A stretch of DNA of 64,000 nt from Dongshaea marina (GTDB lineage: Bacteria > Pseudomonadota > Gammaproteobacteria > Enterobacterales > Aeromonadaceae): the NCBI RefSeq assembly GCF_003072645.1, contig NZ_CP028897.1, positions 2,183,658-2,247,657 on the forward strand, written 5' to 3'. A program made the translations under genes and the position numbers. Each line of letters begins with the position of its first letter. The stretch's first letter is position 1. Shown here piece by piece: positions 12,003 through 47,118 of the stretch. A model generated the notes under the pieces. The model was not told the origin of the DNA. It ran no database searches and was given only the letters and a program-made list of their open reading frames with translations.

Positions 12003-12935
12003 TTAGGAAACCGCTTGTGCGGAAGAAAGACGCAGCTTGATTTTGATCTTTTCCCAGCTCATATCGAACAGGAACAGGGAGACAATCACCAGAAAAACGC
12101 CGAAGGTTTTTTGTAGGGTAAAGCTTTCACCCAACATGAAAATTGACAGCAGGAAGGCCGACAGGGGGATCAGGTTTTGCACCATGTTGGCACGGTTGAC
12201 CCCGGCTAATTTCAGGGAGTTAAAGTAGAGCACATAAGCCAGACCGGAGCAGACCAGACCCAGCATCAGAGTGCAGAAGATGTAGTATCCATTGCCAAAG
12301 GCGATCCAGACCTGGGAGAGAGACTGGTGTCCGAAAGGTAGAACCAGCAGCAGGGCAATGGTGGCAAACAGGAACTGGTAGAGCATGGTGGAGAGACCAT
12401 CGTAGCGATCGGCAAATTTTTTGTTAATAAAGCAGGAGATAATGAACCCCATTACGCCAATCAACATATAGAGATGGCCAATGTTGAGCCCTGAGAACTT
12501 ATTGCTGGGATCAAAGGCGATACAGAAGGCGCCGAAAAACGAGAGAATGACCGCAAAAAACTGAATCGTAGTCGGGATCTTGCGGTAGATGGGGATACTC
12601 ACCAGCAGGGTGAAGATGGGGATCATCCCGTTGATAACCCCGACCTCTGAGGCTGAGATATACTTAAGCGCCAGCAGGGAGGTGTAGAAAAAAATGGCCT
12701 GTGCAGCAATTCCGGAAATTGCCATCAGTGGAATATCTTTGAGGCGCAACCAGCAGCGATTTTTGGTAAACATAAAGACGATGGCCAGTCCAAGGGTTGC
12801 CAGGGTGTAGCGGACAATGGCAAAGATTACGGGATCCATCTTATCGGCTAACACCGCCGAAAATGGGAAGGATGCACCCCATACCACGGCGCAAAATATC
12901 GCCATCAATAAGCCGGAGGTTTCTGCACGGGTCAT
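12003..12935 (-). CDS. EamA/DMT-family inner-membrane transporter
   Basis: 310 residues with about ten hydrophobic segments in two similar halves, as expected of two EamA repeats. The first begins near LLMAIFCAVVWGASFPFSAVLAD-type sequence and the second near residue 150 (MLIGVMGFIISCFI). AAGGAT lies eight bases before the ATG. It sits between the enolase-superfamily and UxaA-like genes in one operon and most probably moves the operon's substrate or a product. EamA proteins are often exporters, so direction is open. Confidence 0.85.
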   Translation of the reverse strand: MTRAETSGLLMAIFCAVVWGASFPFSAVLADKMDPVIFAIVRYTLATLGLAIVFMFTKNRCWLRLKDIPLMAISGIAAQAIFFYTSLLALKYISASEVGVINGMIPIFTLLVSIPIYRKIPTTIQFFAVILSFFGAFCIAFDPSNKFSGLNIGHLYMLIGVMGFIISCFINKKFADRYDGLSTMLYQFLFATIALLLVLPFGHQSLSQVWIAFGNGYYIFCTLMLGLVCSGLAYVLYFNSLKLAGVNRANMVQNLIPLSAFLLSIFMLGESFTLQKTFGVFLVIVSLFLFDMSWEKIKIKLRLSSAQAVS

Positions 12936-13001
12936 TGTTTTTATCCTTATTATGGGGTGGCCAATCAGGCCACCCGAGATGATTGAGTCAAAAGAAATTT
13001 T

Positions 13002-14174
13002 TTAAACTTCGATACACAAGGTTTTTTCGAGGCGCCGATCTTTTTGATACAAAGAGCAGGTTGAGAAACCAACCCCCTCCAGTTGTGTTGGTTCACCATT
13101 GGCGACGGCCTCTATCTTGGTGAGGATCTTATCTGCAACGCTGTTGATCCCCTCTTCGGCACGCATGATGCCGGTGGCATCAATATCTATATCTTCATTG
13201 ATGAGTTGCTGGTTTCCACTGACCCGAATGACCGGCACGATCGGGTTATTGAACCCGGCGCCTCCCGTGGTCCAGACGATGAGCTGGGCACCAAGGGCCG
13301 CAAAGTGCATTCCCGAGCTGCCACACAGGTGGGTCACCTCCGACAGATACATGCCAGGGGCCTTGGGCTTTTCATGGTGGTTGTGATTGATCCGTAGCAG
13401 ATCCTGGATGGGGCGAGTGCCTGTCTTATGCAGGGCGCCAATGGATTTCTCTTCGAGAGTGGTGAGTCCGCCCACGCTATTGCCGATACTCATGGTCTCA
13501 ACGTCGGCTCCCGGAATGTGCCAACGCTTTTCCTCTTCGGCGATTAGCAGCTCAATCTTATCGGCAACCTCAGGAGTCACGGCACGCTTGCGTAGCAGCT
13601 CCTCACAGCCGATGAGCTCAATCAACTCACCGGCAACCGCGCTGCCACCGGCATCGATCCATTGATCGATGGCGGCTCCAACACTAGGATTTGAGGCAAT
13701 CCCTGAGCTGGTATCGGACCCTCCACACTTGATTCCGATCAGCAGCTTGGAGATAGGTGCCGTGGTTCTTTGCTGACGGTTGGCATACTCCTGAAGCTCT
13801 TTGGCCAGAGCAATTCCTTCCCGGACCGTGCTGCGGGTGCCTTTGTGCTTCATGCAGGTGAGGGCATGAGCGGGTTTACCCGCAGCGAGAATCGGTTCGA
13901 TGATAATCTGCGGATCTATGCTGCCACACCCCATTGCCAATACCAGGGCGCCCGCAACATTGGGGTTGAGTGCCGTATGGATCATGGTATTGATCATCTC
14001 TTCATTGCCGGCATACATACAGGTGTTGTAATTGGTGACTATGGTGGCCTGATCCAGGGTCTGTGCGATGGAGCGGGCGATCCCTTCGGCACATTCATCA
14101 ACCACCAAAAGCAGGATCTGGTTGCGGATCCCGACTGAGCCATCCGGGCGGAGATAGCCTTGAAATGTATTCAT
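13002..14174 (-). CDS. UxaA-family hydro-lyase, large subunit
   Basis: About 390 residues from ATG 14174 (MNTFQGYLRPDG), which has GAGGT five bases upstream; the longer open frame back to 14294 overlaps the small-subunit gene and is spurious. Signatures of the altronate/galactarate dehydratase C-terminal domain are present: GYLRPDGSVGIRN, GIKCGGSDTSSGIASNP and HLCGSSGMHF. The family eliminates water (or sulfite, in sulfolactate sulfo-lyase SuyB) from hydroxy acids using Fe or Fe-S. The N-terminal SAF domain is encoded separately one base upstream, the SuyA/SuyB-like split form. Substrate candidates are an altronate-like sugar acid or a sulfonate. Confidence 0.82.
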   Translation of the reverse strand: MNTFQGYLRPDGSVGIRNQILLLVVDECAEGIARSIAQTLDQATIVTNYNTCMYAGNEEMINTMIHTALNPNVAGALVLAMGCGSIDPQIIIEPILAAGKPAHALTCMKHKGTRSTVREGIALAKELQEYANRQQRTTAPISKLLIGIKCGGSDTSSGIASNPSVGAAIDQWIDAGGSAVAGELIELIGCEELLRKRAVTPEVADKIELLIAEEEKRWHIPGADVETMSIGNSVGGLTTLEEKSIGALHKTGTRPIQDLLRINHNHHEKPKAPGMYLSEVTHLCGSSGMHFAALGAQLIVWTTGGAGFNNPIVPVIRVSGNQQLINEDIDIDATGIMRAEEGINSVADKILTKIEAVANGEPTQLEGVGFSTCSLYQKDRRLEKTLCIEV

Positions 14175-14175
14175 G

Positions 14176-14508
14176 TTATACCTCGATCTGCATCTGATGG
14201 ATGATTTCATTGATGATGTTGTGTGGAATATCCAGGCGGTCACTTCGTACATTCTGAACATGAACCAGATCGCCCTGAGGGATGAAGCTGACACTCCGGC
14301 CGACCGGGCAATTAGCCTTGATAATTGGGCTCTGCTCCGGAATCGGCTTCAGGGCAATTTTATTTCCGAACGGGATCGCCTGACGGGCCGTCAGGGTGCT
14401 GAGCAGATGGTTCTCTGCCGAGAAGATCGCAACTTCATCTCCCTTAGGAAGATCACTTAACAGGGTGGCGACATTATCTGAAGCGGATAACTGGATCGCT
14501 TTGAGCAT
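14176..14508 (-). CDS. UxaA-family hydro-lyase, small (SAF-domain) subunit
   Basis: 110 residues forming the SAF domain normally found at the N terminus of one-piece altronate/galactarate dehydratases: MLKAIQLSASDNVATLL, then IPFGNKIALKPI, PIIKANCPVG and DLVHVQNV. It is the first gene of the operon and ends one base before the large subunit, so the two form a heteromeric enzyme. GGAGAG precedes the ATG. The split is like SuyA/SuyB, and is natural here because both parts have their own start and ribosome site; unlike the frameshifted genes elsewhere, no base change is needed. Confidence 0.82.
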   Translation of the reverse strand: MLKAIQLSASDNVATLLSDLPKGDEVAIFSAENHLLSTLTARQAIPFGNKIALKPIPEQSPIIKANCPVGRSVSFIPQGDLVHVQNVRSDRLDIPHNIINEIIHQMQIEV

Positions 14509-29637: not shown

Positions 29638-29997
29638 ATGAATGATATGTTGAATATTAATGCAGCCAGCAAGGAGTATTATTCTTTAATATCCCTTGAC
29701 GGGGCTCTGGACATCAATAGCCATGAGAGTTTTACTCAGCAGGTAGAAGCGATCTACTCTGTGTCTAATTCTGACATCATCATGGATCTTGAGAAATTAC
29801 GCTACATCAGTAGTGTGGGTCTACGAGCTTTTGTCTTGCTTTTTAAACGACTTGCTGCAAATAACCACAAGCTTGTACTCTACAAGACTCAACCTATGGT
29901 TAAAGAGGTCCTGGTTGTTTCGGGATTTTCAAAGCTGATGCCAATTCATGATGATTTAAGTGAAGCAGAAAAAGTGTTCTGCGAACAAATTCACTAA
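29638..29997 (+). CDS. STAS-domain anti-anti-sigma-type protein
   Basis: 119 residues, a complete STAS domain of the SpoIIAA/RsbV kind. The phosphorylation motif is YISSVGLRAF, with the conserved serine that RsbW-type kinases phosphorylate and SpoIIE-type phosphatases restore. ATG 29647 (fourth codon) has better spacing to AGGA and may be the real start. It lies just upstream of the NRPS, in the same direction, with a terminator-like hairpin between. The matching kinase (39457) and phosphatase (39928) lie on the other side of the NRPS-exporter pair. Confidence 0.85.
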   Translation: MNDMLNINAASKEYYSLISLDGALDINSHESFTQQVEAIYSVSNSDIIMDLEKLRYISSVGLRAFVLLFKRLAANNHKLVLYKTQPMVKEVLVVSGFSKLMPIHDDLSEAEKVFCEQIH

Positions 29998-30027
29998 AAC
30001 TGACTCTTTACCCGGCAAGGAAGGCTT

Positions 30028-30050
30028 GGATCGCCAGTGATCCGGTTTTT
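30028..30050 (+). terminator. Terminator between STAS gene and NRPS
   Basis: GGATC-GCCAGT-GATCC followed by GG and five Ts, 30 bases after the STAS stop. It suggests the NRPS has its own promoter in the AT-rich 170 bases that follow. Confidence 0.65.
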
Positions 30051-30218
30051 GCTTATGGAATAAATATCTATCTTTATTCATTTGTCCTGATATGTGCTGA
30101 AAATTTTTTAAATTTCAGTCGCCATGAGCATGGCGGCTGCCTTCGTATGTTTATATGAGAATTTATTAGTAATTTATTTCAATCTCAGCGCAATCTTTAT
30201 TTTATATCGAGGTTTTAA

Positions 30219-31832
30219 ATGCAAATTGCAGCCAGCCGTTACCTGAAAGGTATGTATCTTTCGTATCAAAAGTTAGATGCCGAGGAAAAGATTCGCTACC
30301 ACCTTCCTTATCTTTTGAAATTGAAGGGCGAGTCAGTACTCGAACTGTCAAGGCTGCAACACTGCTACGAAAGCTTTATCGCTGAACATTATAGCCTTAG
30401 AAGTGAGTTTTTTATTAATGAGAATGGTGAGCTTATTCAGCGTATCAGGGATGATGTTGAAGCCAGGGTTATCAGTGAGGATCTCTCTCGCTATGATGAC
30501 CTTATCAAAGAAGGCTTTGAGCTGGAAAACTCGCCGCTGTGTCGTCTCTATCTCCTTAACGGCGAGGGCGAAACATATCTACTGTTCCTGTTTCATCATA
30601 TGGTTGTAGATGGCAACAGTATCCATGATCTGGTCAAGAGCTTTGTTGACCGCTACGAAGGGGCTGGCTCAGAGTCAGAGATTGCCAGAGTTGAGGATCT
30701 CCAGGGATACCTGGAGTTTGAGCAGGAGAGTATTCAGCTCGCTCTGTCTCATGAGAACGCAGAGTTAGCGCAGCACTCCAATGAGCTAAACCTTCCCTGG
30801 CAGCATGTCACCGCAGATTCTTTTCGGGTAATTGCGCAGACAAATAGCCTGGATCACAACCTTTATGCAAAGTTAGTCGAATTTTCTAAGCAGGAGCAGG
30901 TCTCAGTCTTCAATATCCTGAAGGCTGCCTACGGTATCCTGATCGCCCGTTACTCTCAAACCGATGAGTTTTTGATAAGCTATCCCTTTTTTACTGCAAA
31001 AAATCATTCCGTTCAGGGCTGCTTCGTCAATACGGTATTTGACACCTTTAAGCTTAAGCCGAGCTTCAGGGCGCAGGTCCATGCTCAGTCTATCGATGAT
31101 AATCTGAAAATATCTCGCTATCTTCCGGCTCCTGAGGCTCTTAGCCGGGCAAAGTCGGTTGATGGTTATCCAGCCATCAGTATGACCATGACAGATCTCG
31201 GACACGCTCCCTCTGAAAAATGGCTGGCTTCACCTGTCTCTGTAAACCTTGGGGATAGTGATATCAATCTGGCGGTTCAGCTGATTGATGACACCCTCAG
31301 GTATCAGTTTATCTATTCAAATAAGCTTGAATCACCCATTTTGTCCCGGTTGGGTGAGCACTTTATAAATTTGCTGGCGAAGTTGCTTGCGGATCCACAG
31401 GCGGAGCTTAAGAGCATCGATTATCTCTGTGATGATGAGAGATCTCTGATGCTTGAGCAGTTTAACGACACAGACGTTGACTATCCAAAAGACAAACAGT
31501 TTATTGAGCTGTTTGCCGAGGCTGTTCATAATCACCCGGACTCAGATGCCCTGGCCTTTAACGGCAACAGCCTGAGCTATCGGGAGCTGGATGATGCATC
31601 TACACGACTCGCCAACTACCTGGTTGCCCAGCATGGTGCCGGGCCTGAGAAGGTGATCGGTATCCTGTTTGATCCCTGCTTTGAGATGATCATCTCTATC
31701 TTAGCGGTTCTCAAGTCTGGTGCGGCTTATGTTCCGATTGCCGTTGAGTATCCTCTCGAGCGACGCCAGTACATGCTGGAAAACAGCGAAAGCATTCTCC
31801 TGCTGACCCACTCTGATCTTCAGGGGAGATGA
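30219..31832 (+). CDS. NRPS part 1: condensation domain and start of adenylation domain 1
   Basis: ATG 30219 follows GAGG. Residues 1-390 form a condensation domain with the active-site motif HHMVVDG (codons from 30592). From about residue 425 an adenylation domain begins: LSYRELDDASTRLANYL (A1) and LKSGAAYVPIAVEYP (A2). The frame stops at 31832 after LLLTHSDLQGR, in the middle of the adenylation domain. The next frame starts with an overlapping ATGA and carries the rest of that domain, so this is one gene split by a missing G in the run at 31823-31826 (CAG-GGG-GAG-ATG if restored). Having a condensation domain first suggests a fatty-acyl or externally supplied starter. Confidence 0.9.
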   Translation: MQIAASRYLKGMYLSYQKLDAEEKIRYHLPYLLKLKGESVLELSRLQHCYESFIAEHYSLRSEFFINENGELIQRIRDDVEARVISEDLSRYDDLIKEGFELENSPLCRLYLLNGEGETYLLFLFHHMVVDGNSIHDLVKSFVDRYEGAGSESEIARVEDLQGYLEFEQESIQLALSHENAELAQHSNELNLPWQHVTADSFRVIAQTNSLDHNLYAKLVEFSKQEQVSVFNILKAAYGILIARYSQTDEFLISYPFFTAKNHSVQGCFVNTVFDTFKLKPSFRAQVHAQSIDDNLKISRYLPAPEALSRAKSVDGYPAISMTMTDLGHAPSEKWLASPVSVNLGDSDINLAVQLIDDTLRYQFIYSNKLESPILSRLGEHFINLLAKLLADPQAELKSIDYLCDDERSLMLEQFNDTDVDYPKDKQFIELFAEAVHNHPDSDALAFNGNSLSYRELDDASTRLANYLVAQHGAGPEKVIGILFDPCFEMIISILAVLKSGAAYVPIAVEYPLERRQYMLENSESILLLTHSDLQGR

Positions 31833-34800
31833 GCGCTGTCTTTTCCAATACCATAGCCTTGGATCAATTGAACTATGGGGCCCAAAGCGCTCGCCTTGAT
31901 AGCTGTGCTCCTCTTAGCCAAAATCTGGCCTACATCATCTATACCTCAGGGACCACAGGTAACCCAAAAGGGGTGATGATCGAGCATGGCACACTAACTA
32001 ATCTGTGTTTTTGGTTTAGCCATACCAATGATCTTTCTCCTTCGAGTGCGACAACTAAATATGCAGGATTTGGCTTTGATGCGAGTGTTGTTGAGATCTT
32101 TCCATCCTTAATCTCTGGTTGCTGCCTGCACCTCATTCCCAAGGAGATGAGGCTGAACCTGCCTGAACTCTATGACTACTTTAAGGCACACAGGATTGGT
32201 TTTTCATTTTTACCCACCCAGTTCTCAGAGGTGTTTTTGCAAAATCCTCTCGATGATCTCAAGCATGTGATGGTTGGGGGAGACAAGCTCAAGCAAGTCA
32301 ATCTGGACTCACCAACCACGGTCCATAATGGCTATGGTCCGACCGAGGCAACGGTTCAGACGACAGATTTCGTTGTCGACCAGGAATATAGCAATATTCC
32401 TATCGGTAAGCCGATCGCAAACTACAAAGTCTATATTCTTGATGAGAACCTTAACCTCTGCCCATTGGGTGTTCCCGGTGAACTTTGTGTTGGGGGGCAG
32501 GGGCTTGCCAGAGGTTACCTCAATCGTCAGGACCTGACCGATGAGAAGTTTATTCAGCACCCGCAATTTGGGCGGATCTACCGGACCGGCGATCTGAGCC
32601 GTTGGAAAGCGGATGGCAATATTGAATTTCTCGGGCGTCTCGATTTCCAGGTGAAAATCCGCGGCTTCAGAATTGAGCTTGGAGAGATCGAATCTCGCCT
32701 GACCGATCTCGAACAGGTTAACGATGCGCTGGTGCTCGCCCTGGATGATGCCAATGGCAACAAATACCTCTGTGCTTATTACGTCAGTCACAATGACATT
32801 GATGAGACTGAGTTGCAGCGCGAGCTGTCCAAGCAGGTTCCTGATTATATGATCCCGGATATCTTCATGCACATGCAGGAGTTTCCTCTGACACCCAATG
32901 GCAAGGTCGATCGACGCGCCCTGCCAAAGCCGGATAAAAACCTGCTGACGCCTGAATATGTTGCTCCCCGCAGCCACAGCGAAACACTGCTCGCAAATGA
33001 GATCGCATCTTTGCTTCGTTGTGAGCGCGTTGGTGTAGCAGATGACTTCTTTAAGCTTGGTGGTAGCTCCATCACCACGGTTGCCCTAATCGGCAAACTA
33101 TCCAGGTTAGGCTATGGCATCAGCATCTCGGATATATTTAAAAACCCTAAAGTTGAGGATCTCGCATCAGTTCTTGACTCATCTGGCAAGGTTGAGAAGA
33201 TTTCACATGCTCCAGATCTTGAATATTACCCTGTTACCAGCTCTCAGCGCGGGATCTATTTAACGGAGAAGCTGCAGGGGCCTAGTACGACTTATAACCT
33301 TTACCTGAGTATCCATATCGATGGCACTTTGGATAAAGAAAAGCTCGGACTTGCGATTGACAGGCTTGTGGCGCGCCATGAGTCGTTAAGAATGTGCTTT
33401 GACTATATCGATGGTGAAGTTGTTCAGTCTGTACTGCCCCAGGTGACAATCAATAAGAAGATCAAGAAAATATCCGAATCTGAAATTGAGAGTCATATCT
33501 GTGATTTTGTTCAGCCTTTTGATCTGAAGAAAGGCCCTCTTTTTAGCGTTGCCCTGTTTGAAATAGAAAGAGACAGCAGCGTCCTGGTGCTAAATATGCA
33601 CCATATCGTTGTCGATGGACTGTCTGTTCAACCTCTGGTCAAAGATCTCTTTGCTCTGTATGACGATGAGGAAATTAAGCTTCCTGAGATAAACTACAAG
33701 GACTACTCATATTGGTACACCCATGAGTACCTCACATCTGACTCTTTCCTGGAGAATAAATCCTATTGGAGGCAGCAGATCGAGGGGGCAAGTGCAATTG
33801 AGCTTCCTTATGAAAATGCTAAAACCGCGCTCAACGCTGAAGATCGCAATAATGAAACGGTTCGGGTAGATATTCCGTCCGAACTGGCCAAGAGGGTCGG
33901 GACATTTTGCCAGCAGCATAGCCTGACCCCCTATATGTTTTATGTCGGGATCTGTGGTCTTGTATTGTCAAAATATGCACGCACCAGTGATGTGGTATTT
34001 GGTGCTGCAGCATCCGGACGCCTAGATAGTGCTGTTGAAGATATGGTCGGCATGTTTGTTAATACCTTGCCACTGCGCTTGCCTGCCGAAAATGACAGTA
34101 GCTTTGAGACATATTTTTCAACGGTCAAAGAGAGCTGCCTGAACTTATTAAAACATCAGGGATATAACTTTGAGCAGGTCATTCAGGAGCTGGGAAGCAG
34201 CTATAACTCGCTGGTTGATGTCTTCTTTAACTATTTTGAGAGCGAGTCATCCTATACTAGTGCGGACTTAAAATATCAGGTGAATACACCCGATCCAGAG
34301 GTTGCGAAGTTTGATCTCACCCTGATGGTCAATAAGATTTCAGAGCGCTTTGTGTTAAGTGCAGATTACCGCTCTGCGCTGTTTAGCCAGGATATGATCA
34401 TCCGTATGATGAATCATTTCCTGCAGGTTGTGGATCTTGTGCTCAGCTCTGACTATACAAAGGAACAGCTTAGTCAAATTGCATTGATTACCCAGCCCGA
34501 AAAGGCCCAGATCCAAGAGGTATTTAATGACACCTATCAGGAGTACCCGCAATCGAAGACTCCGATAGCCCTGTTTGAGGAGAGTGTTGCCAATAATCCT
34601 GATGGGGTCGCGCTGATCTTTGAATCTGTGAAATTAACCTATGCAGAGCTCAATCACAGGGCAAATCAATTGGCGCACTACCTGCTCGAAGATGCAGGGG
34701 TGATTCCGGGGAGTAAGATTGGAATCCTGGTCGATCGCTCCATAGAGATGATGATTAGTATGCTGGCTGTTCTGAAGACGGGGAGTGCGTATATCCCCCT

Positions 34801-37800
34801 GTCTAAAGAGTATCCACAAGATCGGATCGCCTATATCCTGGACGACTCACAGAGTTCACACCTGATTGTATCTGATCAATTCGAAAAACAGATGGGTGTG
34901 ATCGCGGATTCAGGTCAGCATCAGCTGCTGAATATCAATCAAATCGACTATCAACATAAGTCAACTCAATCCACAGGGATCCAGTACGGCATTGAGGATG
35001 TGATGTATATCATCTATACCTCAGGGACAACAGGGAACCCTAAGGGCGTTGAAATCAACTCAGGGACAGTGACCAACCTGGCTGCGGGTCAGATCAACCG
35101 TTTTGGTGTGACTTCGGATGAGGTCATTTTGCAGTTTTCTGAAATTTCATTTGATGCCTCAGTGGAACAGATCTGGATCGCTTTTGTGCGCGGTTGTTCA
35201 CTCCTGTTGATCCGTAAAGATAAGCTGCTCGATGCTGCTGAGTTTGAGAAATACCTGGTTGAGCATAAGGCAACCCATGTCCACGCTGTTCCTGCTTTTC
35301 TCAATAGCATTGATTTGACCAATAAGTCTTATCTTAAGCGGGTGATTGCCGGTGGCGATGCCTGTACGGTTGAGCTGGCTAAGAAGTTTGTGGCTGACTG
35401 TGATTTCATCAATGAGTATGGTCCAACCGAAACAACCGTTACCGCGGTGCAGTACCATATTCCGAGAGGCAGCGAGCTCTCGGCGATGAGTTCATTGCCG
35501 ATAGGCAAGCCCCTGGCCAACTATAAAGCCTATATCCTGGATGAAAACCTCAACCTTTGCCCCATCGGGGTTCCGGGTGAGTTATGTATCGGTGGTGCAT
35601 GCCTGGCCCGTGGCTACCTGAATCGACCTGAGCTGAATGCTGAAAAGTTTATCTACCACCCTGAGTTGGGTGAGTATATTTACCGCAGTGGCGATCTGGC
35701 TCGACTGAGATCCGATGGCAATATTGATTTTCTGGGGCGCATCGACTTCCAGGTCAAGATCAGAGGCTTCAGGATTGAGCTTGGCGAAATTGAGTCACGT
35801 ATCATAGAGATGCCTGGTGTCACGGATGCCCTGGTGCTTGCCCTGGACGATGATCAGGGGATGAATTACCTGTGCGGTTATTATGTTTGTTCGACTGAAT
35901 TGACTGATTCAGAGCTCACTCAAGAGCTTAAAACCCACTTACCTGATTACATGATCCCAAGTGCATTTGTGCGGATGGATGCCTTCCCATTGACACCCAA
36001 TGGCAAGGTGAACCGAAAGGCGATGCCTAAGCCTGAGATCACATTTGAGAGTGATTATGTCGAGCCTCGTGACCATGTTGAGGAGAAACTCTGCATGCTG
36101 TGGGAGAAGGCTCTTGGATTACCCCGTGTAGGCATCTGTGATGACTTCTTCCGCATCGGTGGTAACTCAATCAAGGCGATCGGCTTTATCTCAGAGGCTC
36201 AAAAATTAGGCCTTAATCTGAAAATTAATGATCTCTTTAAAAACCCGACGGTCAAAGAGATCTCTGAAAATGTAGATATTCAGGCATTTGATCTCAATAG
36301 CAACCTTGATCAGATCAAGAGCAAATTGACGACACCACCAAGTGAGCAGCTTCAATCCGAGATAGAGCATGAGAGAGAAAAGGCTCTGACCCGTTCTAAG
36401 TTTTGGCTGAATCAGCTGGAACAGGGTGATATTTCTGAAAAAATTAACGGTTCTTCTGTTTTGGTCACCGGAGCCACGGGGCATCTCGGAGCGCATATCA
36501 TTTTTGAACTACTGTCGCAGGGTAGGGAAGCGATCGCTCTGGTCAGGGGGCAAAGTGATAGCCATGCACGTGAGCGTCTGGAAGAGAAGCTTGAATACTA
36601 TTTCGGTGATGACTACAAGCCGTTCCAGGATAAGCTGCAGGTGTTTGCAAGTGATCTTGAGAAGGCCGATCTCGGATTAACTCAGGAGTGCTACCAGGTC
36701 TTAACTTCACGACTGGATGCAATCATCCATTCAGCTGCAAATGTGAGTCACTATGGTGAGTATGAGGCTTTCTACCGAACCAACGTACTCTCGACTGAGA
36801 ACCTGATCGCTCTTGCTGAAAAAGGCTCCCAGGTCGGTTTTCACTATATATCGACTCGCTCTGTTTGCGAGGGAGTCCTGATCAAAGACCGTCCGGTGGC
36901 CTCCTATGCCGAGTGTGATACCCCTGAGATTGAAGATAGTATTGATAATGTGTATTTGAAGACCAAGTTACTTGGGGAGCATAGGGTTATTGACGCAAGA
37001 ACGCGGGGGATGAACGCCTGTATCTATCGTGTAGGTAACCTTGCTTTTAACTCTAAAACACTCAGGCATCAGTCGAACTTAGAGAGTAATGGTTTTTATC
37101 AGACCCTTAAGAGCTTTTTCAATATGGGGATGATATTTGATAGTTACCAGGTTGAGATGTCCTGTGTCGATAAAACCGCACAAGCGATTTGTAAGATCTT
37201 TGATAAAAAGGCCCTGCAGAGCGGTACTTATCATGTATATAACCCAAATCGGGTCAAATACGCAGAGCTCTTTTCTGCAGATGATAATCCGCTGTCAATC
37301 CAGGTGGTTTCTGTGTCCGAATATATAGATGCTTTAAAAGAGCGCGCTGAGAGTGAAATCTTTAAGGGCTATGTTCAGGATCAGCTGCTGCATTTAGGCT
37401 GGATTGAACATCAGTCTGGAGAGAGCACTCAGGCTATCCTGACCCAGGAGATCACCAATAAGGCATTGGCCATGCTTGATTTTGACTGGGGTGAGCTCAC
37501 GGCAACGCATCTGGTTGATATGATGAAGAATGCCCTGAAATCACGGATTGATTATCTATCCGGACACACTCTGTTTGAGAATCTCGATGAGCAGACTGTA
37601 GCTAAGCTGGCACTGAAATCGAGGCTTTCATCCTACTCCGGCGATCAGAGAGCGAGCCTTGAAAGCGATAGTAACGGATTAAGCTTGCTGTACTCAGGAT
37701 TTGCCAGCTTGTCGTTGGCTTCTCCCGGAGGCTGGGAAGGGACGGTGCGGATCTTGTCTGAGAATAGTCTTGTGAATACAGGATCATTATTGAAATCGAC

Positions 37801-37975
37801 CATTACCTCCAGGGGACACCTCGACTCTCTGGTTGGGGAGTTTGGCTTGCTCAATATCGATGACACGCTGGTAAAAGAGATGCTATCCCAGGAGCCGGAG
37901 TTCCTGATGTCACTATTGGAGTCCGTTTCAGATGAGCGTGACGCCTATCGAAAAATGCTGGTGATGACTCATTAA
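31829..37975 (+). CDS. NRPS part 2: A-T-C-A-T-reductase plus C-terminal cNMP-binding-like domain
   Basis: 2048 residues continuing part 1. Adenylation 1: IYTSGTTGNPKG, GYGPTEA, YRTGDL, NGKVDRR. Carrier 1: LGGSS (near 33060). Condensation 2: MHHIVVDG (33598-33620). Adenylation 2: IYTSGTTGNPKG, EYGPTET, YRSGDL. Carrier 2: IGGNS (36157). Thioester reductase from about 36440: VTGATGHLGAH cofactor loop and YLKTK (YxxxK), which releases the product as an aldehyde or alcohol. The last roughly 145 residues (from LFENLDEQTVAKLA, about 37570) follow the CRP/FNR nucleotide-binding pattern, including LLYSGFASLSL and GWEGTVRIL. No thioesterase is present. Hand-aligned specificity residues: module 1 D-A-V-F-M-G-G-V-Q-K; module 2 D-A-E-A-I-G-E-V-T-K, the Glu hinting at a basic residue. 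Product predicted: acylated dipeptide aldehyde or alcohol. Confidence 0.9.
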   Translation: MSAVFSNTIALDQLNYGAQSARLDSCAPLSQNLAYIIYTSGTTGNPKGVMIEHGTLTNLCFWFSHTNDLSPSSATTKYAGFGFDASVVEIFPSLISGCCLHLIPKEMRLNLPELYDYFKAHRIGFSFLPTQFSEVFLQNPLDDLKHVMVGGDKLKQVNLDSPTTVHNGYGPTEATVQTTDFVVDQEYSNIPIGKPIANYKVYILDENLNLCPLGVPGELCVGGQGLARGYLNRQDLTDEKFIQHPQFGRIYRTGDLSRWKADGNIEFLGRLDFQVKIRGFRIELGEIESRLTDLEQVNDALVLALDDANGNKYLCAYYVSHNDIDETELQRELSKQVPDYMIPDIFMHMQEFPLTPNGKVDRRALPKPDKNLLTPEYVAPRSHSETLLANEIASLLRCERVGVADDFFKLGGSSITTVALIGKLSRLGYGISISDIFKNPKVEDLASVLDSSGKVEKISHAPDLEYYPVTSSQRGIYLTEKLQGPSTTYNLYLSIHIDGTLDKEKLGLAIDRLVARHESLRMCFDYIDGEVVQSVLPQVTINKKIKKISESEIESHICDFVQPFDLKKGPLFSVALFEIERDSSVLVLNMHHIVVDGLSVQPLVKDLFALYDDEEIKLPEINYKDYSYWYTHEYLTSDSFLENKSYWRQQIEGASAIELPYENAKTALNAEDRNNETVRVDIPSELAKRVGTFCQQHSLTPYMFYVGICGLVLSKYARTSDVVFGAAASGRLDSAVEDMVGMFVNTLPLRLPAENDSSFETYFSTVKESCLNLLKHQGYNFEQVIQELGSSYNSLVDVFFNYFESESSYTSADLKYQVNTPDPEVAKFDLTLMVNKISERFVLSADYRSALFSQDMIIRMMNHFLQVVDLVLSSDYTKEQLSQIALITQPEKAQIQEVFNDTYQEYPQSKTPIALFEESVANNPDGVALIFESVKLTYAELNHRANQLAHYLLEDAGVIPGSKIGILVDRSIEMMISMLAVLKTGSAYIPLSKEYPQDRIAYILDDSQSSHLIVSDQFEKQMGVIADSGQHQLLNINQIDYQHKSTQSTGIQYGIEDVMYIIYTSGTTGNPKGVEINSGTVTNLAAGQINRFGVTSDEVILQFSEISFDASVEQIWIAFVRGCSLLLIRKDKLLDAAEFEKYLVEHKATHVHAVPAFLNSIDLTNKSYLKRVIAGGDACTVELAKKFVADCDFINEYGPTETTVTAVQYHIPRGSELSAMSSLPIGKPLANYKAYILDENLNLCPIGVPGELCIGGACLARGYLNRPELNAEKFIYHPELGEYIYRSGDLARLRSDGNIDFLGRIDFQVKIRGFRIELGEIESRIIEMPGVTDALVLALDDDQGMNYLCGYYVCSTELTDSELTQELKTHLPDYMIPSAFVRMDAFPLTPNGKVNRKAMPKPEITFESDYVEPRDHVEEKLCMLWEKALGLPRVGICDDFFRIGGNSIKAIGFISEAQKLGLNLKINDLFKNPTVKEISENVDIQAFDLNSNLDQIKSKLTTPPSEQLQSEIEHEREKALTRSKFWLNQLEQGDISEKINGSSVLVTGATGHLGAHIIFELLSQGREAIALVRGQSDSHARERLEEKLEYYFGDDYKPFQDKLQVFASDLEKADLGLTQECYQVLTSRLDAIIHSAANVSHYGEYEAFYRTNVLSTENLIALAEKGSQVGFHYISTRSVCEGVLIKDRPVASYAECDTPEIEDSIDNVYLKTKLLGEHRVIDARTRGMNACIYRVGNLAFNSKTLRHQSNLESNGFYQTLKSFFNMGMIFDSYQVEMSCVDKTAQAICKIFDKKALQSGTYHVYNPNRVKYAELFSADDNPLSIQVVSVSEYIDALKERAESEIFKGYVQDQLLHLGWIEHQSGESTQAILTQEITNKALAMLDFDWGELTATHLVDMMKNALKSRIDYLSGHTLFENLDEQTVAKLALKSRLSSYSGDQRASLESDSNGLSLLYSGFASLSLASPGGWEGTVRILSENSLVNTGSLLKSTITSRGHLDSLVGEFGLLNIDDTLVKEMLSQEPEFLMSLLESVSDERDAYRKMLVMTH

Positions 37976-38001
37976 TCACCGGGTTCAAAGCCTCTGTATC
38001 T

Positions 38002-38030
38002 AAACCTCCGAGAGCTTCGGAGGTTTAACT
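38002..38030 (+). terminator. Terminator after the NRPS
   Basis: AAACCTCCGA-GAGCT-TCGGAGGTTT is a long perfect stem 27 bases after the NRPS stop, followed by AACTTTTC. It may only partly terminate, since the exporter gene follows closely. Confidence 0.75.
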
Positions 38031-38057
38031 TTTCAAGTTAAGGTAGAAGTTGTTAGC

Positions 38058-39326
38058 ATGAATGTTGTGAAAAAAAATAGCCCGCTGGTCATCGCACTCC
38101 TGATGATGACCATCATTATTGATGTCATGGGCGTAGGTTTGGTATTTCCTGTGATACCGGAAATTATTATGTCCAAGACGAGTCCGTTCTTTGCCCAGTC
38201 TGTGGCTCCGGCATCTCGTTATTTCTATTATGGGCTCTCCATGGCTCTGTGGCCGCTGGGTGTTTTTATCGGAAGCTCCCTCCTGGGTAAGCTTTCAGAT
38301 ATCTATGGGCGAAAGAAGCTATTGATCATTACTATATTAGGGATTGTCTTATCCTACTTGCTATCCATAGCTTCTTTTTATGGTACCTCGCTGTGGATTT
38401 TTATGTTCAGCCGTTTTCTATGTGGCTTTTTTGGTGGAAGTTTTAGCCTGGCACAGGCGTTTATTCTGGATATATCAACCGACGATCGCCGCATGAAGAA
38501 CTTAGGTTTAATCACCCTGGCGGCTTCGATCGGTTTTGTGATCGGTCCGTTAGTGACGACTGCTCTTAGCTTTTTTGCAAAGACACCTGAGCTATCTTCG
38601 GTACTACCATTTTGGTTTGGTGCTATCTTAGCGCTGATTAATGTTCTAAATATCATCATTTTTCTGCCTAAGGTTCCCAGGGCTTCGGTTCATCAGGATA
38701 AGCTTAATATATTCAAACTGATCTTCAGCTTTTCGGTCATGTTTACCGATAAGAGGGTTCGATTACTCGCACTATGCTTTTTGTTCCTTCAGTTAGGTTG
38801 GGGGTACTTTGCTCAATCATTACCTTTAGCTCTGGAGCAGATATTCCATTTTGCTCCTGCGATTGTGGGAGTATTCTTCCTGTTGATGAATGTTGGATAC
38901 CTATCGTCAACCCTCTGGTTACAGGATAAAGTGCTCAAGAAGTTTGATGTGGTCACTGCCATGGTGTCGATTGCAATATTAGTTTCAATCATGCTTGCGA
39001 TATCTGCTGTTTATGTTTCACCTTATGTGATGGGCTTTGTCGCATTTTTTGCCTCACTAATCGAGATTATTCTGTATACCGCAGTGATGTCTGAAGTTGC
39101 ATCTCAGGTTGAAACCCATGAGCAGGGTGAATTTATGGGGGGAACGACATCCGTATTTGGTATCGCATGGTTCATGAATGCGTTTAGTATTGGGCCGGTT
39201 GTGAGCGAATCGATAACCGCACCATTTTACCTGGCTTCGTTAGGGCTGTTAATTTGTGGCCTGTTTGCCTACCTGTATAAGATGAAAATACAAAAAGGTG
39301 TACAACTTAAGACCGTAGAGGCATAG
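38058..39326 (+). CDS. MFS exporter, TetA-like
   Basis: 422 residues with twelve membrane helices. The start VIALLMMTIIIDVMGVGLVFPVIPE and the motif GKLSDIYGRKKLLI are typical of TetA/DHA1 proton-coupled exporters; a further motif-C-like stretch is AASIGFVIGPLVTT. It lies 82 bases after the NRPS in the same direction, so the natural cargo is probably the NRPS product, giving export and self-protection (inference). Coding DNA is somewhat AT-richer than the housekeeping genes of the window. Confidence 0.88.
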   Translation: MNVVKKNSPLVIALLMMTIIIDVMGVGLVFPVIPEIIMSKTSPFFAQSVAPASRYFYYGLSMALWPLGVFIGSSLLGKLSDIYGRKKLLIITILGIVLSYLLSIASFYGTSLWIFMFSRFLCGFFGGSFSLAQAFILDISTDDRRMKNLGLITLAASIGFVIGPLVTTALSFFAKTPELSSVLPFWFGAILALINVLNIIIFLPKVPRASVHQDKLNIFKLIFSFSVMFTDKRVRLLALCFLFLQLGWGYFAQSLPLALEQIFHFAPAIVGVFFLLMNVGYLSSTLWLQDKVLKKFDVVTAMVSIAILVSIMLAISAVYVSPYVMGFVAFFASLIEIILYTAVMSEVASQVETHEQGEFMGGTTSVFGIAWFMNAFSIGPVVSESITAPFYLASLGLLICGLFAYLYKMKIQKGVQLKTVEA

Positions 39327-39333
39327 AAAGTGA

Positions 39334-39362
39334 GGGCTTCAGTTTCAGGCTGAAGCCTTTTT
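39334..39362 (+). terminator. Intrinsic terminator of the exporter gene
   Basis: GGCTTCAG-TTTCAGG-CTGAAGCC followed by six Ts just after the exporter stop. It separates NRPS-exporter transcription from the kinase-phosphatase pair. Confidence 0.88.
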
Positions 39363-39456
39363 TATCAAGATGCTCAGCAATAGGATGGTGAGTAACTGAT
39401 AGCTTTTTACCTGCTACTATGAGATGATTGAGATTATTTAATTTTTGGGAGTCATC

Positions 39457-39879
39457 ATGGCTATTAAAAGGGAATACTTTGATATTGCCCGATATGATCT
39501 TAAGGCCGAACTGATCTCGCTTAAAAAGGAGATTCATCAATACACTGAAGAAGGAGTCCGGGATAGAGCTATTAAGGTAGAGCTAATTATTGAGGAGCTA
39601 ATGACCAACTCCTTTAATTACTTGCTCCCAAGTGACTCAGAAGTGAATCTTTGTATCAGAGTGTCGGATGATTTAAGTCGCATCAAGTATACCGAGCATC
39701 CTGTAACTGAACTAGATGTTAATAAAATAGTCAATAATGCAAAAGAGGTTACCCGGGAGGCTCCACTGGATGAGGTGGGTGGCCTTGGCCTTTTGCTTGT
39801 CGAAAGTTTTAGTGATGACATTGATTGTCGATATGATACTGAAACCCTGACTCGTACCTTTATATTGAATATTTCATAA
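39457..39879 (+). CDS. RsbW/SpoIIAB-like anti-sigma kinase (HATPase_c_2)
   Basis: 140 residues from ATG 39457, with GGGAG five bases upstream. The ATP-binding N-box reads ELIIEELMTNSFNY (Glu and Asn present) and the G-box GGLGLLLVESFSD, as in stand-alone serine kinases of partner-switching systems. Such kinases phosphorylate the STAS partner and, when free, hold a target such as a sigma factor. No sigma gene is in this window, so the target is unknown. Followed by the SpoIIE phosphatase after 48 bases, probably one operon. Confidence 0.85.
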   Translation: MAIKREYFDIARYDLKAELISLKKEIHQYTEEGVRDRAIKVELIIEELMTNSFNYLLPSDSEVNLCIRVSDDLSRIKYTEHPVTELDVNKIVNNAKEVTREAPLDEVGGLGLLLVESFSDDIDCRYDTETLTRTFILNIS

Positions 39880-39927
39880 CTGGATATTATCCATCGTATC
39901 ATTTGTTATAGTCTATAGTTGGTCTTT

Positions 39928-41808
39928 ATGTTAGACAGAAGAAAGAGTGCGTATCATAGCCTTTATAAAGCAAGCCGGATATTAATAACAATAACCGTTA
40001 TTTTATTGTTTGCAGTTCTTTTTTATGTGCTGACTAGTTACATGCTTGATCGAAAGCGAGACGCCATTGACTATAAGCTGAACCAGTTGCATCGATTGTC
40101 TGATGGGATTAAAGAAAACATGATGACAACTGCAGACATGTTCCAGGAGATATATACTAATCCTACCCGCCTGAAGACAGATATCCCCGAGAGTACCCGC
40201 TTTTTTAAGCGTGTTGGCGATAGAAGTATTTACTTCTATGGCATAGGATATGCCCTTAATCCGAAATATAAAGATTATGGTGCCTATATCTATATGAATG
40301 ACAATGACGAGATTGTTGTTGATAGTATGGAGGATATATATCATAAAACGGGGGAGAGTTATTATCAACGGCCATGGTTTATCCGGGCTCTTCAAGAAAA
40401 GAAAAGCTTTTTCTTATCTCCCCAGCCGAGCAAGTTCGGAAATTTGGACTATACAGTAACTTACTGCTTTCCGCTGATGTATAAAGATAGTGTGTATGCG
40501 GTTGGTGTGATTGATGTCTCAATGTCGGCATTTTTTAAAATCCTCTCCAAGGAGGCCAAATCGGACTCTGATGTCGAGGTTTTTTATGTGAGCCAGGAGT
40601 ATGATGATCATCCAAGACAGTTTATTAGTCTTGATGATGATAAATCAAATGTTGCTACGGAACACCTGAATTGGTTATACAGCAATCAGAGCATTAAGTT
40701 TTCACAGTGGTCGTATGAAGGGGGCTACCTTTATAATAAAGCTATATTTATGAATGGTGCGTTTAGTTTTATTATAAAGATAAATATTATCCCTCTTATC
40801 TTCAAAATGATATTTATCTTGCTGCTGGTATCAATGTCGGTACTATTGATTTCCTATTACCTTAGGCGGTTCTCAAAGGAGACGATAAAAACAGTCACCC
40901 TGCCTATTGAAAGTCTCCTGGATGAGGTAGGGCGAATTGCGGCTGGAAACCTGGAAAGCCGAGTTTCTGTCGCAACCGGGATTTATGAGCTTGATAAACT
41001 AAGCTCGTCGATCGATAGCATGCGAAGTGATATTTGCTCTCTGATCCAAAAAGAGAAAGAAAATGAGCATATGAAAGCAGGAATTGAGCTTGCTTCTCGA
41101 ATTCAGTCAGCTTTTTTATCTCAGTCTGAGAGTGAATCTAAAAACATTCGTGGCTCGTTAGATATTTACTCTTCCTATGAGCAGGGGAACATAATTAGTG
41201 GTGATATCTATTTGGTTCATCAAATAGAAGATACTTTGTATATTTTTATCGGTGATGCTTCTGGAAAAGATGTCGCAGCATCCATATTTTCACTGTTTGT
41301 TTTGGCTCGATTTAAAATATTGTCAAATCAACTCATGAACCCACAGGAGTTGTTGACAGAATTAAATGATTATCTGTGTGAATTTAACAGCGAAACCATG
41401 TTCATTACGGCGACATGCTGTAAAATCGACATGAAAACAATGGAGTGTATTATCTCGAATGCAGGGCATGCATGCCCTCTGCTCTACTCTGGCCTGCGCA
41501 AAGAGGTTCAGGAGATCAGCTGTGATACGAACTTAGTGCTGGGGGTCATTTCTGGTTATCGCTATACCCAAACCCGGATGATACTCAATCGGGATGAGGA
41601 GATAATTCTTTGTACCGACGGAGTGACGGAGGCGGTATATGAAGGGGAGTATTATGGGCAGCAGGGGCTGGTTAATTTTATTCATGGTTTTAACCGTCAA
41701 TCGACCCTGGATCCCGCGAAAGCTCTGATTTCTGATGTCGCATGCTTTAACTTGGATGGAAAAGATAAAGATGATCGGACGGTGATCTGGATTCGCAATC
41801 CACGATAA
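39928..41808 (+). CDS. Membrane sensor phosphatase: Cache-HAMP-SpoIIE (PP2C)
   Basis: About 626 residues. A first helix at about 15-35 and a second at about 290-310 flank a periplasmic Cache-type sensor (YYQRPWFIRALQEKKSFFLSP). HAMP follows (LPIESLLDEVGRIAAGNLESRV), then a SpoIIE-type serine phosphatase with metal-site residues in SGDIY, GDASGKDVAASIF, CTDGVTEA and DDRTVIWIR. It should dephosphorylate the STAS protein in response to an external ligand. A TTG three codons upstream is an alternative start; neither has a strong ribosome site. Confidence 0.88.
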   Translation: MLDRRKSAYHSLYKASRILITITVILLFAVLFYVLTSYMLDRKRDAIDYKLNQLHRLSDGIKENMMTTADMFQEIYTNPTRLKTDIPESTRFFKRVGDRSIYFYGIGYALNPKYKDYGAYIYMNDNDEIVVDSMEDIYHKTGESYYQRPWFIRALQEKKSFFLSPQPSKFGNLDYTVTYCFPLMYKDSVYAVGVIDVSMSAFFKILSKEAKSDSDVEVFYVSQEYDDHPRQFISLDDDKSNVATEHLNWLYSNQSIKFSQWSYEGGYLYNKAIFMNGAFSFIIKINIIPLIFKMIFILLLVSMSVLLISYYLRRFSKETIKTVTLPIESLLDEVGRIAAGNLESRVSVATGIYELDKLSSSIDSMRSDICSLIQKEKENEHMKAGIELASRIQSAFLSQSESESKNIRGSLDIYSSYEQGNIISGDIYLVHQIEDTLYIFIGDASGKDVAASIFSLFVLARFKILSNQLMNPQELLTELNDYLCEFNSETMFITATCCKIDMKTMECIISNAGHACPLLYSGLRKEVQEISCDTNLVLGVISGYRYTQTRMILNRDEEIILCTDGVTEAVYEGEYYGQQGLVNFIHGFNRQSTLDPAKALISDVACFNLDGKDKDDRTVIWIRNPR

Positions 41809-46682: not shown

Positions 46683-46758
46683 TGGCTCCCCCTGCTGGAC
46701 TTGAACCAGCGACATATGGATTAACAGTCCACCGTTCTACCGACTGAACTAAGGGGGA
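46683..46758 (-). tRNA. tRNA-Asn (GTT), copy 2
   Basis: Reverse strand reads TCCCCCT...AGGGGGA acceptor arms, D arm GTTC/GAAC, anticodon loop CTGTTAA, T arm GCTGG-TTCAAGT-CCAGC and encoded GCCA end; 76 bases. Confidence 0.95.
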
Positions 46759-46772
46759 ATCGCTTTGTAAAT

Positions 46773-46848
46773 TGGCTCCCCCTGCTGGACTTGAACCAGC
46801 GACATATGGATTAACAGTCCACCGTTCTACCGACTGAACTAAGGGGGA
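46773..46848 (-). tRNA. tRNA-Asn (GTT), copy 3
   Basis: Identical in sequence to copy 2, with the same 14-base spacer, giving a strict 90-bp period. Anticodon GTT in loop CTGTTAA. Confidence 0.95.
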
Positions 46849-46862
46849 ATCGCTTTGTAAAT

Positions 46863-46938
46863 TGGCTCCCCCTGCTGGACTTGAACCAGCGACATATGGA
46901 TTAACAGTCCACCGTTCTACCGACTGAACTAAGGGGGA
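46863..46938 (-). tRNA. tRNA-Asn (GTT), copy 4
   Basis: Identical to copy 2; full cloverleaf with encoded GCCA end. The downstream spacer differs from some copies at one base (CGCTTTG/CACTTTG), which shows the copies are not a simple read-through duplicate. Confidence 0.95.
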
Positions 46939-46952
46939 ATCACTTTGTAAAT

Positions 46953-47028
46953 TGGCTCCCCCTGCTGGACTTGAACCAGCGACATATGGATTAACAGTCC
47001 ACCGTTCTACCGACTGAACTAAGGGGGA
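46953..47028 (-). tRNA. tRNA-Asn (GTT), copy 5
   Basis: Identical to copy 2, with acceptor, D, anticodon and T arms intact, and in the same 90-bp register. Confidence 0.95.
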
Positions 47029-47042
47029 ATCACTTTGTAAAT

Positions 47043-47118
47043 TGGCTCCCCCTGCTGGACTTGAACCAGCGACATATGGATTAACAGTCCACCGTTCTAC
47101 CGACTGAACTAAGGGGGA
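47043..47118 (-). tRNA. tRNA-Asn (GTT), copy 6 (promoter-proximal)
   Basis: Same mature sequence as the others. It is the first to be transcribed, since the array is on the minus strand; the sequence upstream differs from the internal spacers and should hold the array promoter. Confidence 0.95.

Follow-up and report, generated by a model that had tools for sequence, protein, structure and literature searches.

The best-known partner switches act on sigma factors (PMC8256260; this paper, PMC2686161, PMC2812497 and PMC12826045 are cited from excerpts, and statements about them extend to those excerpts). The role of partner switches in organisms that lack sigma factors was an open question in 2009, when archaea, for which no bona fide sigma factor was known, were described as carrying such modules (PMC2686161). 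A year later, Leahy et al. listed phosphatases, an anti-sigma antagonist and a MatE protein around a nonribosomal peptide synthetase (NRPS) of Methanobrevibacter ruminantium, and proposed sensing, regulation and export (PMC2812497). Here we describe a bacterial locus in which a partner switch encloses an NRPS and a transporter. It occupies positions 29638 to 41808 of a 64,000-nucleotide stretch of the Dongshaea marina genome (the window; contig NZ_CP028897.1, positions 2,183,658 to 2,247,657).

We propose that synthesis or export is switched locally, by the partner-switching proteins of the locus and with no dedicated sigma factor; our judgement on this is evenly divided. The NRPS, which ends in a reductase (R) domain, would make a dipeptide aldehyde or a derivative of one, probably N-acylated because the enzyme begins with a condensation domain. 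The transporter, of the major facilitator superfamily (MFS), would export it. A membrane phosphatase with Cache, HAMP and SpoIIE domains would sense something outside the cytoplasm and dephosphorylate the STAS protein, which the RsbW-like protein would rephosphorylate or bind. Whichever partner is left free, STAS or RsbW-like, would act locally on the making or exporting of the compound. A first-pass annotation, made from the sequence alone, had suggested such a switch on production or release. The suggestion holds up in that the same gene triplet recurs beside other R-terminated NRPSs and the target need not be a dedicated sigma factor; the near relatives do not bear it out. The regulatory idea is plausible, and its support comes from distant relatives, not from conservation of the window locus.

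A synthetase enclosed by switch genes

The locus has six open reading frames (ORFs), all on the plus strand, with switch genes on both sides of the NRPS (Table 1). Its GC content is 44.7%, against 50.6% for the remaining window, and none of its ORFs encodes a sigma factor. The first-pass inventory (STAS, NRPS, MFS, RsbW-like and Cache-HAMP-SpoIIE genes on one strand of AT-richer DNA, without a sigma gene) was confirmed throughout. Reading the genes as one operon is weakened: the hairpins in the NRPS-MFS and MFS-kinase gaps are far more stable than shuffled sequences (z -4.9 and -4.25), and these strong hairpins behind the NRPS and MFS genes make a single transcript unlikely. The terminator pattern scan as a whole did not rise above chance (13 sites against 11.4 expected), and the two strong hairpins are absent from its list.

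Pfam matches give the synthetase the domain order C-A-T-C-A-T-R (C, condensation; A, adenylation; T, thiolation), followed by a tail of about 150 residues that resembles a cyclic-nucleotide-binding (cNMP) domain. The domain order read at first pass therefore stands, but the single gene does not. The two NRPS ORFs overlap by the ATGA at 31829-31832, and the frame shifts inside the first A domain (A1). Aligned to the second A domain (A2) as query, the part of A1 in ORF 1 covers residues 3-99 and the part in ORF 2, in the other frame, residues 126-490. Only about 65 bases lie between these halves, so no large piece is missing. The split is either a frame break, by mutation or sequencing error, or a genuinely split gene. 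Acidic residues in the A2 pocket would suit a basic residue, a by-eye reading on which we do not rely. The same genome encodes a second R-domain-like protein (G000:C1:3375194-3375982; here and below G denotes a genome and L a locus), with 32% identity in a 1004-residue frame.

The C-terminal tail has no Pfam match of its own. It aligns to the C-terminus of the NRPS of G216 (BLASTP 3e-15), whose tail matches PF00027 at 3.8e-14, and by eye it has lost the residues of what we take to be the phosphate cassette. The cNMP-like domain named at first pass is thus upheld as a homologue, by way of the G216 tail; its regulatory weight is not, since the degenerate domain adds little. Cyclic-nucleotide input to the synthetase is weakened for the same reason. 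The R-terminated NRPSs of G216 (L028, 2974-3408) and G346 (L029, 1468-1902) keep a recognisable PF00027 cyclic-nucleotide-binding end.

The STAS protein passes TIGR00377 (70.3 bits, cut-off 53.45). Its motif YISSVGLR, in which Ser58 and Ser59 are candidate phospho-acceptors, aligns with other NRPS-linked STAS proteins, most of which share the form YISS(A/V)GLR; the phospho-serine motif proposed earlier is borne out. The RsbW-like protein, called a kinase at first pass, exceeds the PF13581 cut-off; its N and GGLG (G2) boxes are present but the usual DxG of the G1 box is absent, so its kinase activity is uncertain; against the RsbW model NF003144 it scores 24.2, with a cut-off of 145. The phosphatase is the single PF07228 match in the 5.11-Mb, two-contig genome, whose listed relatives include none of the same genus; by eye it retains the acidic motifs that serve as PPM metal ligands. 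The MFS protein is a distant relative of the Tet(A/B/C) drug/proton antiporters.

Table 1. Features of the locus and one neighbouring gene array, in window coordinates
Feature	Position	Strand	Details
STAS protein	29638..29997	+	119 residues, anti-sigma-antagonist type; PF01740 E 2.3e-16
Weak terminator-like hairpin 3' of STAS gene	30026..30045	+	Pattern scan; fold of 30018-30055 = -11.1 kcal/mol, z -1.17
NRPS ORF 1	30219..31832	+	Condensation domain (PF00668 1.5e-32) and first part of A1 (PF00501 positions 1-100 of 384)
NRPS ORF 2	31829..37975	+	Rest of A1, T1, C2, A2, T2, terminal R, degenerate cNMP-like domain; PF00501, PF00668, PF00550 (two), PF07993
C-terminal NRPS extension, degenerate cyclic-nucleotide-binding-domain homologue	37526..37975	+	BLASTP
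Strong terminator-like hairpin, NRPS-MFS gap	38001..38027	+	-16.5 kcal/mol, z -4.91
MFS transporter, probable exporter	38058..39326	+	422 residues; PF07690 7.8e-35
Strong terminator-like hairpin into T-run, 3' of MFS gene	39332..39363	+	-17.4 kcal/mol, z -4.25
RsbW/SpoIIAB-like HATPase_c_2 protein	39445..39879	+	PF13581 30.8 bits, cut-off 27.4; likely start ATG 39457
Membrane phosphatase, PDC/Cache-HAMP-SpoIIE (PPM)	39919..41808	+	PF22673 28.0 bits (cut-off 27), PF00672 28.6 (25), PF07228 119.5 (25; 2.3e-34)
Five tandem tRNA-Asn (gtt) genes	46683-47118	-	

Switch genes beside other reductase-terminated synthetases

Does the arrangement recur? One peptide pattern gave at least 459 loci with R-terminated NRPSs in named genomes, and we took the best 80; many are metagenome assemblies and may include foreign contigs. 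Neighbourhoods were scanned with models built from loci of this analysis, which weak STAS or kinase genes may escape. Genes for SpoIIE, STAS and kinase proteins accompany the NRPS at 8 of the 80 loci, and SpoIIE with STAS at one more. SpoIIE is present at 10, where genome density predicts 1.0 (Poisson 1.2e-7). These ten include L148, where SpoIIE lies on the opposite strand and has no STAS neighbour. The density comes from 71 matches in 102.4 Mb; the 29 genomes behind it, out of the 80, cover every SpoIIE-bearing locus except L161. In the archaeal genomes G514, G520 and G521, PF07228 matches once each and the match is the NRPS-linked one; a later protein search indicates that several SpoIIE matches are possible in other genomes of the Methanobrevibacter class.

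A quick tree of 99 R domains places 16 of the 17 switch-bearing rows, together with six rows labelled as having the MatE-kinase protein alone, in a supported set of 25. The labels rest on the stretches seen, and the row for L102 is identical to that for the differently labelled L056. The set spans Methanobacteriota, Thermoplasmatota, Bacillota and Bacteroidota, and includes the Methanobrevibacter rows. The tree's sample also shows another association: for 15 or more of its 99 rows the NRPS lies beside, or is fused to, sensor-kinase-like proteins (four confirmed by Pfam, the others by an HATPase model or by eye). In L031 and L056 (both G243) and in L094, R-terminated NRPSs are fused to or directly followed by histidine-kinase-like proteins, those of G243 containing PAS by eye, as if sensing and synthesis formed one unit.

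At 7 of the 80 loci the exporter is a MatE protein with a C-terminal RsbW-like domain, confirmed by Pfam in L166 and L149. With such a MatE-kinase protein as the query, a search of 291 genomes of one class gave 25 loci: 23 matches reaching query residue 545 or beyond, and two shorter ones. Seven have an R-terminated NRPS, 13 a STAS or SpoIIE gene, and 19 one or the other; L238 is the L166 locus again, and without it the counts are 6, 13 and 18 of 24. Some genomes give more than one MatE locus, and several stretches are short. Among 20 control loci drawn from the plain-MatE matches of the same search, none has an R-terminated NRPS, STAS or SpoIIE gene, and L307 has a lone adenylation-like gene (19/25 against 0/20, Fisher p 7e-8 with relatedness ignored). 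The kinase domain falls below threshold in seven of the 25 (L243, L244, L246, L247, L251, L255 and L256); a laxer alignment, from which L255 was left out, found a partial or weak domain in L243, L246, L247 and L251 and none in L244 and L256.

On the exporters, this domain has in most rows lost the GGLG box while retaining the N and G1 boxes, the reverse of the window kinase. This loss suggests that the domain would serve as a docking partner, not a kinase. Proteins of this kind lie at 11441-13201 of L166, 4864-6765 of L149 and 11419-13194 of L152. Some MatE-kinase cassettes have no NRPS and carry another ligase, such as a GH3-family protein (L243), or no recognised biosynthetic gene (L251). 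A STAS - APH-like phosphotransferase - HATPase_c_2 protein lies beside the MatE-kinase gene of L241 (10952-12538), and L245 has a STAS-HATPase protein of similar size (12702-14309).

The archaeal loci were surveyed separately, with an NRPS-linked phosphatase of Methanobrevibacter as the query. A match was found in 84 of 151 genomes of that class, and the top 20 relatives were taken, excluding the query's own genome (L316 is 99% identical to the query). STAS and kinase genes adjoin SpoIIE in 18 of the 20 loci. Ten have a clear NRPS gene, always in divergent orientation, and two more have a fragment (L326 and L327); in L332 the NRPS has no R domain in view. A phosphopantetheinyl transferase gene is present in 15 loci, six of them confirmed by Pfam. 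Taken together, an NRPS or a phosphopantetheinyl transferase accompanies 17 of the 20 loci and 16 of the 18 full triplets. The triplet does not serve NRPSs only: eight loci lack an NRPS domain, though seven of those eight have the transferase. In L317, L318, L328, L329, L331 and L334, the STAS, kinase and SpoIIE genes adjoin a phosphopantetheinyl transferase gene instead of an NRPS; an acyltransferase-3 gene is close by in L329.

How does the window relate to these loci? When 51 SpoIIE domains were placed in a tree, 8 of the 10 NRPS-linked rows and all 11 MatE-linked rows grouped in a set with weak support (87/84). The window falls outside it and pairs with G466 (support 100/100; 61% identity in the catalytic region), its nearest phosphatase relative, at 55% identity. 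With its NRPS outside the switch clade and its SpoIIE domain paired with that of G466, the window would most simply have joined an NRPS to a partner switch a second time, independently. In G466, a STAS domain and an HATPase_c_2-TauD protein are encoded about 7 kb away from the phosphatase gene, in a stretch that is partly masked and has several broken frames; weak matches in the gap, given below, hint that the phosphatase lineage accompanies small-molecule enzymes.

Evidence on the target of the switch

The exporter is our favourite candidate for the target, because an RsbW-like domain is fused to the exporter in relatives; direct contact of the STAS protein with the synthetase, which the first-pass annotation thought possible, is thus a less favoured candidate. 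A broader claim would be that partner switching has been recruited repeatedly as direct post-translational control of small-molecule synthesis and export, in archaea with no sigma factor at all. In one lineage the RsbW-like domain would have become a gate within the exporter, opened or closed by a STAS protein that an external signal sets by way of a SpoIIE phosphatase; the window would be an independent bacterial version in which the MFS and RsbW-like proteins are separate. We put this forward tentatively, and think it more apt to fail than to hold.

A number of findings weigh against a local switch in the window. The assembled sequence interrupts the NRPS within A1; the RsbW-like protein lacks its G1 DxG; the stable hairpins divide the locus. 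The window NRPS, the seventeenth switch-bearing row of the R-domain tree, stands far outside the 25-row set, three rows of which themselves have no module in the stretch seen. In its own set of 34 rows, judged from the stretches seen, only the window has the module. Neither SpoIIE nor STAS was found in the stretches around the class-level NRPS matches in G216, G346, G461, G243 (twice), G226, G240 and G177, and in G216 the SpoIIE gene is on another contig than the NRPS. Nor is the phosphatase common in the genomes sampled. In a phylum sample of 398 genomes, the window's own included, it matches at E 1e-30 only in that genome; in the class sample only G466 has it besides; and the three genomes of the order of G466 gave no second relative. 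Among plasmids, 57 records match it, none over more than 80% of its length and all below 60% identity. In the 7-kb gap of G466, ATP-grasp (E 0.0045) and AMP-binding (E 0.0013) matches are both below cut-off, and a polytopic protein is a transporter by eye. Finally, the exporter fused in relatives is MatE and that of the window MFS, and the fused domain is weak in archaea: L162 gives MatE alone (E 0.01), and L333 an E of 0.0041, below cut-off.

The neighbourhood survey proposed at first pass thus divides. In the stretches seen, no co-occurrence was found among the closest relatives of the window's own NRPS, the 34-row set; it is found in the distant clade, in archaea, Bacillota and Bacteroidota. 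Homologous NRPS loci without switch genes, which the first-pass annotation would have taken as refutation, are what the near relatives show and what the more distant clade contradicts.

Could the switch instead be of the ordinary kind? The target of the RsbW-like or STAS protein would then be a sigma factor of this genome, RpoS or some other one, and the response would include transcription of the NRPS and exporter genes. The best-known switches work on sigma factors, and Shewanella CrsR/CrsA is reportedly linked to RpoS. The host encodes nine sigma factors, RpoS among them, and its presence is a further point against a purely local switch. We scanned eight of the nine: RpoS, RpoH, FliA (two), RpoE and three extracytoplasmic function (ECF) types. 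None of these eight reaches the TIGR02980 cut-off of 234.35 for SigB/SigF/SigG-type factors, RpoS coming closest with 118.5; the remaining one, of 622 residues (L257), is RpoD-sized. The locus itself has no sigma gene, and the genome's sole SpoIIE match lies inside the cluster. The four STAS matches of the genome are the locus protein, two in proteins of 480 and 543 residues, and one beside an Hpt/histidine-kinase gene. Comparable cassettes occur in archaea, and since archaea lack sigma factors, the target there must be something else. We consider the sigma-type switch unlikely.

Still less probable, in our view, is an autoinducer circuit in which the NRPS product is the ligand of the Cache domain and the STAS output acts elsewhere, as might be the case for SypA of Vibrio fischeri, whose target is not known in the excerpt of PMC8256260. 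R-terminated NRPSs are often found with sensor-kinase-like proteins, as in the 15 or more tree rows mentioned above; the RsbW-like domains carried on exporters, and the phosphopantetheinyl transferase genes linked to the switch in archaea, favour synthesis or export as the output over a role as input only. Least probable of all is coincidence, an acquired AT-rich island of unrelated NRPS and regulatory neighbours: the base composition, the separate hairpins of the genes and the nearest NRPS relatives without a module would fit it, but the NRPS has switch genes on either side, all on one strand, and in other phyla the same three protein types recur around R-terminated NRPSs, with SpoIIE about tenfold more frequent than expected.

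The recurrent NRPS, phosphopantetheinyl transferase and exporter neighbours offer a concrete, testable answer to the question of 2009, namely control of a natural product. If this is right, NRPS clusters that lie silent in gut bacteria and methanogens might be activated by setting whether a single small protein is phosphorylated, and transport would be regulated in a new way where an anti-sigma-like domain is built into the exporter.

Comparison with described systems

Individual proteins of the locus resemble described ones at a distance. The best NCBIfam match of ORF 2 is AusA, the aureusimine synthetase (NF047350), likewise reductase-terminated, but ORF 2 scores 1299.1 bits, short of the curated 2500, and the window NRPS has in addition a first condensation domain and the cNMP-like tail. 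Residues 383-626 of the phosphatase, in its C-terminal part, match SiaA, a biofilm phosphatase (NF038263), at 31.4 bits, short of the curated 700, and SiaB, SiaC and SiaD, the partners of SiaA, were not seen in the window locus. The MFS protein likewise misses the curated cut-off for Tet(A/B/C) efflux (NF012174; 100.7 of 475). With the RsbU/V/W and SpoIIE/AA/AB modules the window shares a SpoIIE-type PPM phosphatase and a single-domain STAS protein with a conserved serine; a dedicated SigB/SigF/SigG-type factor was not found among the eight of nine sigma factors scanned.

Indigoidine is an NRPS product. In Vogesella indigofera, TciK-TciR, with an RsbW-like-domain protein, regulates indigoidine output, and a non-sigma target was considered (PMC12826045, 2025); this system differs in having a receiver-RsbW protein, no RsbV homologue reported in that genome, and a different cluster. 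SypA/SypE, BtrU/V/W and HmpU/V/W also have a STAS output without a known cognate sigma factor, but what they govern, as described in PMC8256260, is biofilm, type III secretion or motility and no NRPS cassette. The SpoIIAA/SpoIIAB/SpoIIE-like triplets of Methanomicrobiales are the same trio without a sigma factor, with a target not known there; unlike the window, they are not linked to an NRPS in the excerpt (PMC2686161).

The first-pass annotation thought the scheme might be undescribed. A search of the open literature, which takes in few subscription papers, turned up no study of what it does or of the fused exporter-kinase proteins; yet the NRPS-switch scheme is not wholly undescribed, since Leahy et al. 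had listed part of the gene set and suggested sensing, regulation and export (PMC2812497). Their mru0513-0516 cluster comprises a phosphopantetheinyl transferase, a phosphatase, an antagonist and a kinase. Closest to the window is their mru0068 cluster, with an NRPS of two C-A-T modules and a terminal reductase (so the Figure S8 legend; the main text has a thioesterase), two serine phosphatases, an anti-sigma antagonist and an exporter. The mru0068 cluster is archaeal, its exporter is MatE and not MFS, and in the excerpt no kinase is named beside the NRPS. Common descent within one switch clade was not seen: Methanobrevibacter relatives and the window sit apart both in the quick R-domain tree and in the SpoIIE tree, with its weakly supported set. 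What the two loci share is the type: a C-A-T-C-A-T-R synthetase, in two ORFs in the window, with genes for a SpoIIE-type phosphatase and a STAS protein as its neighbours.

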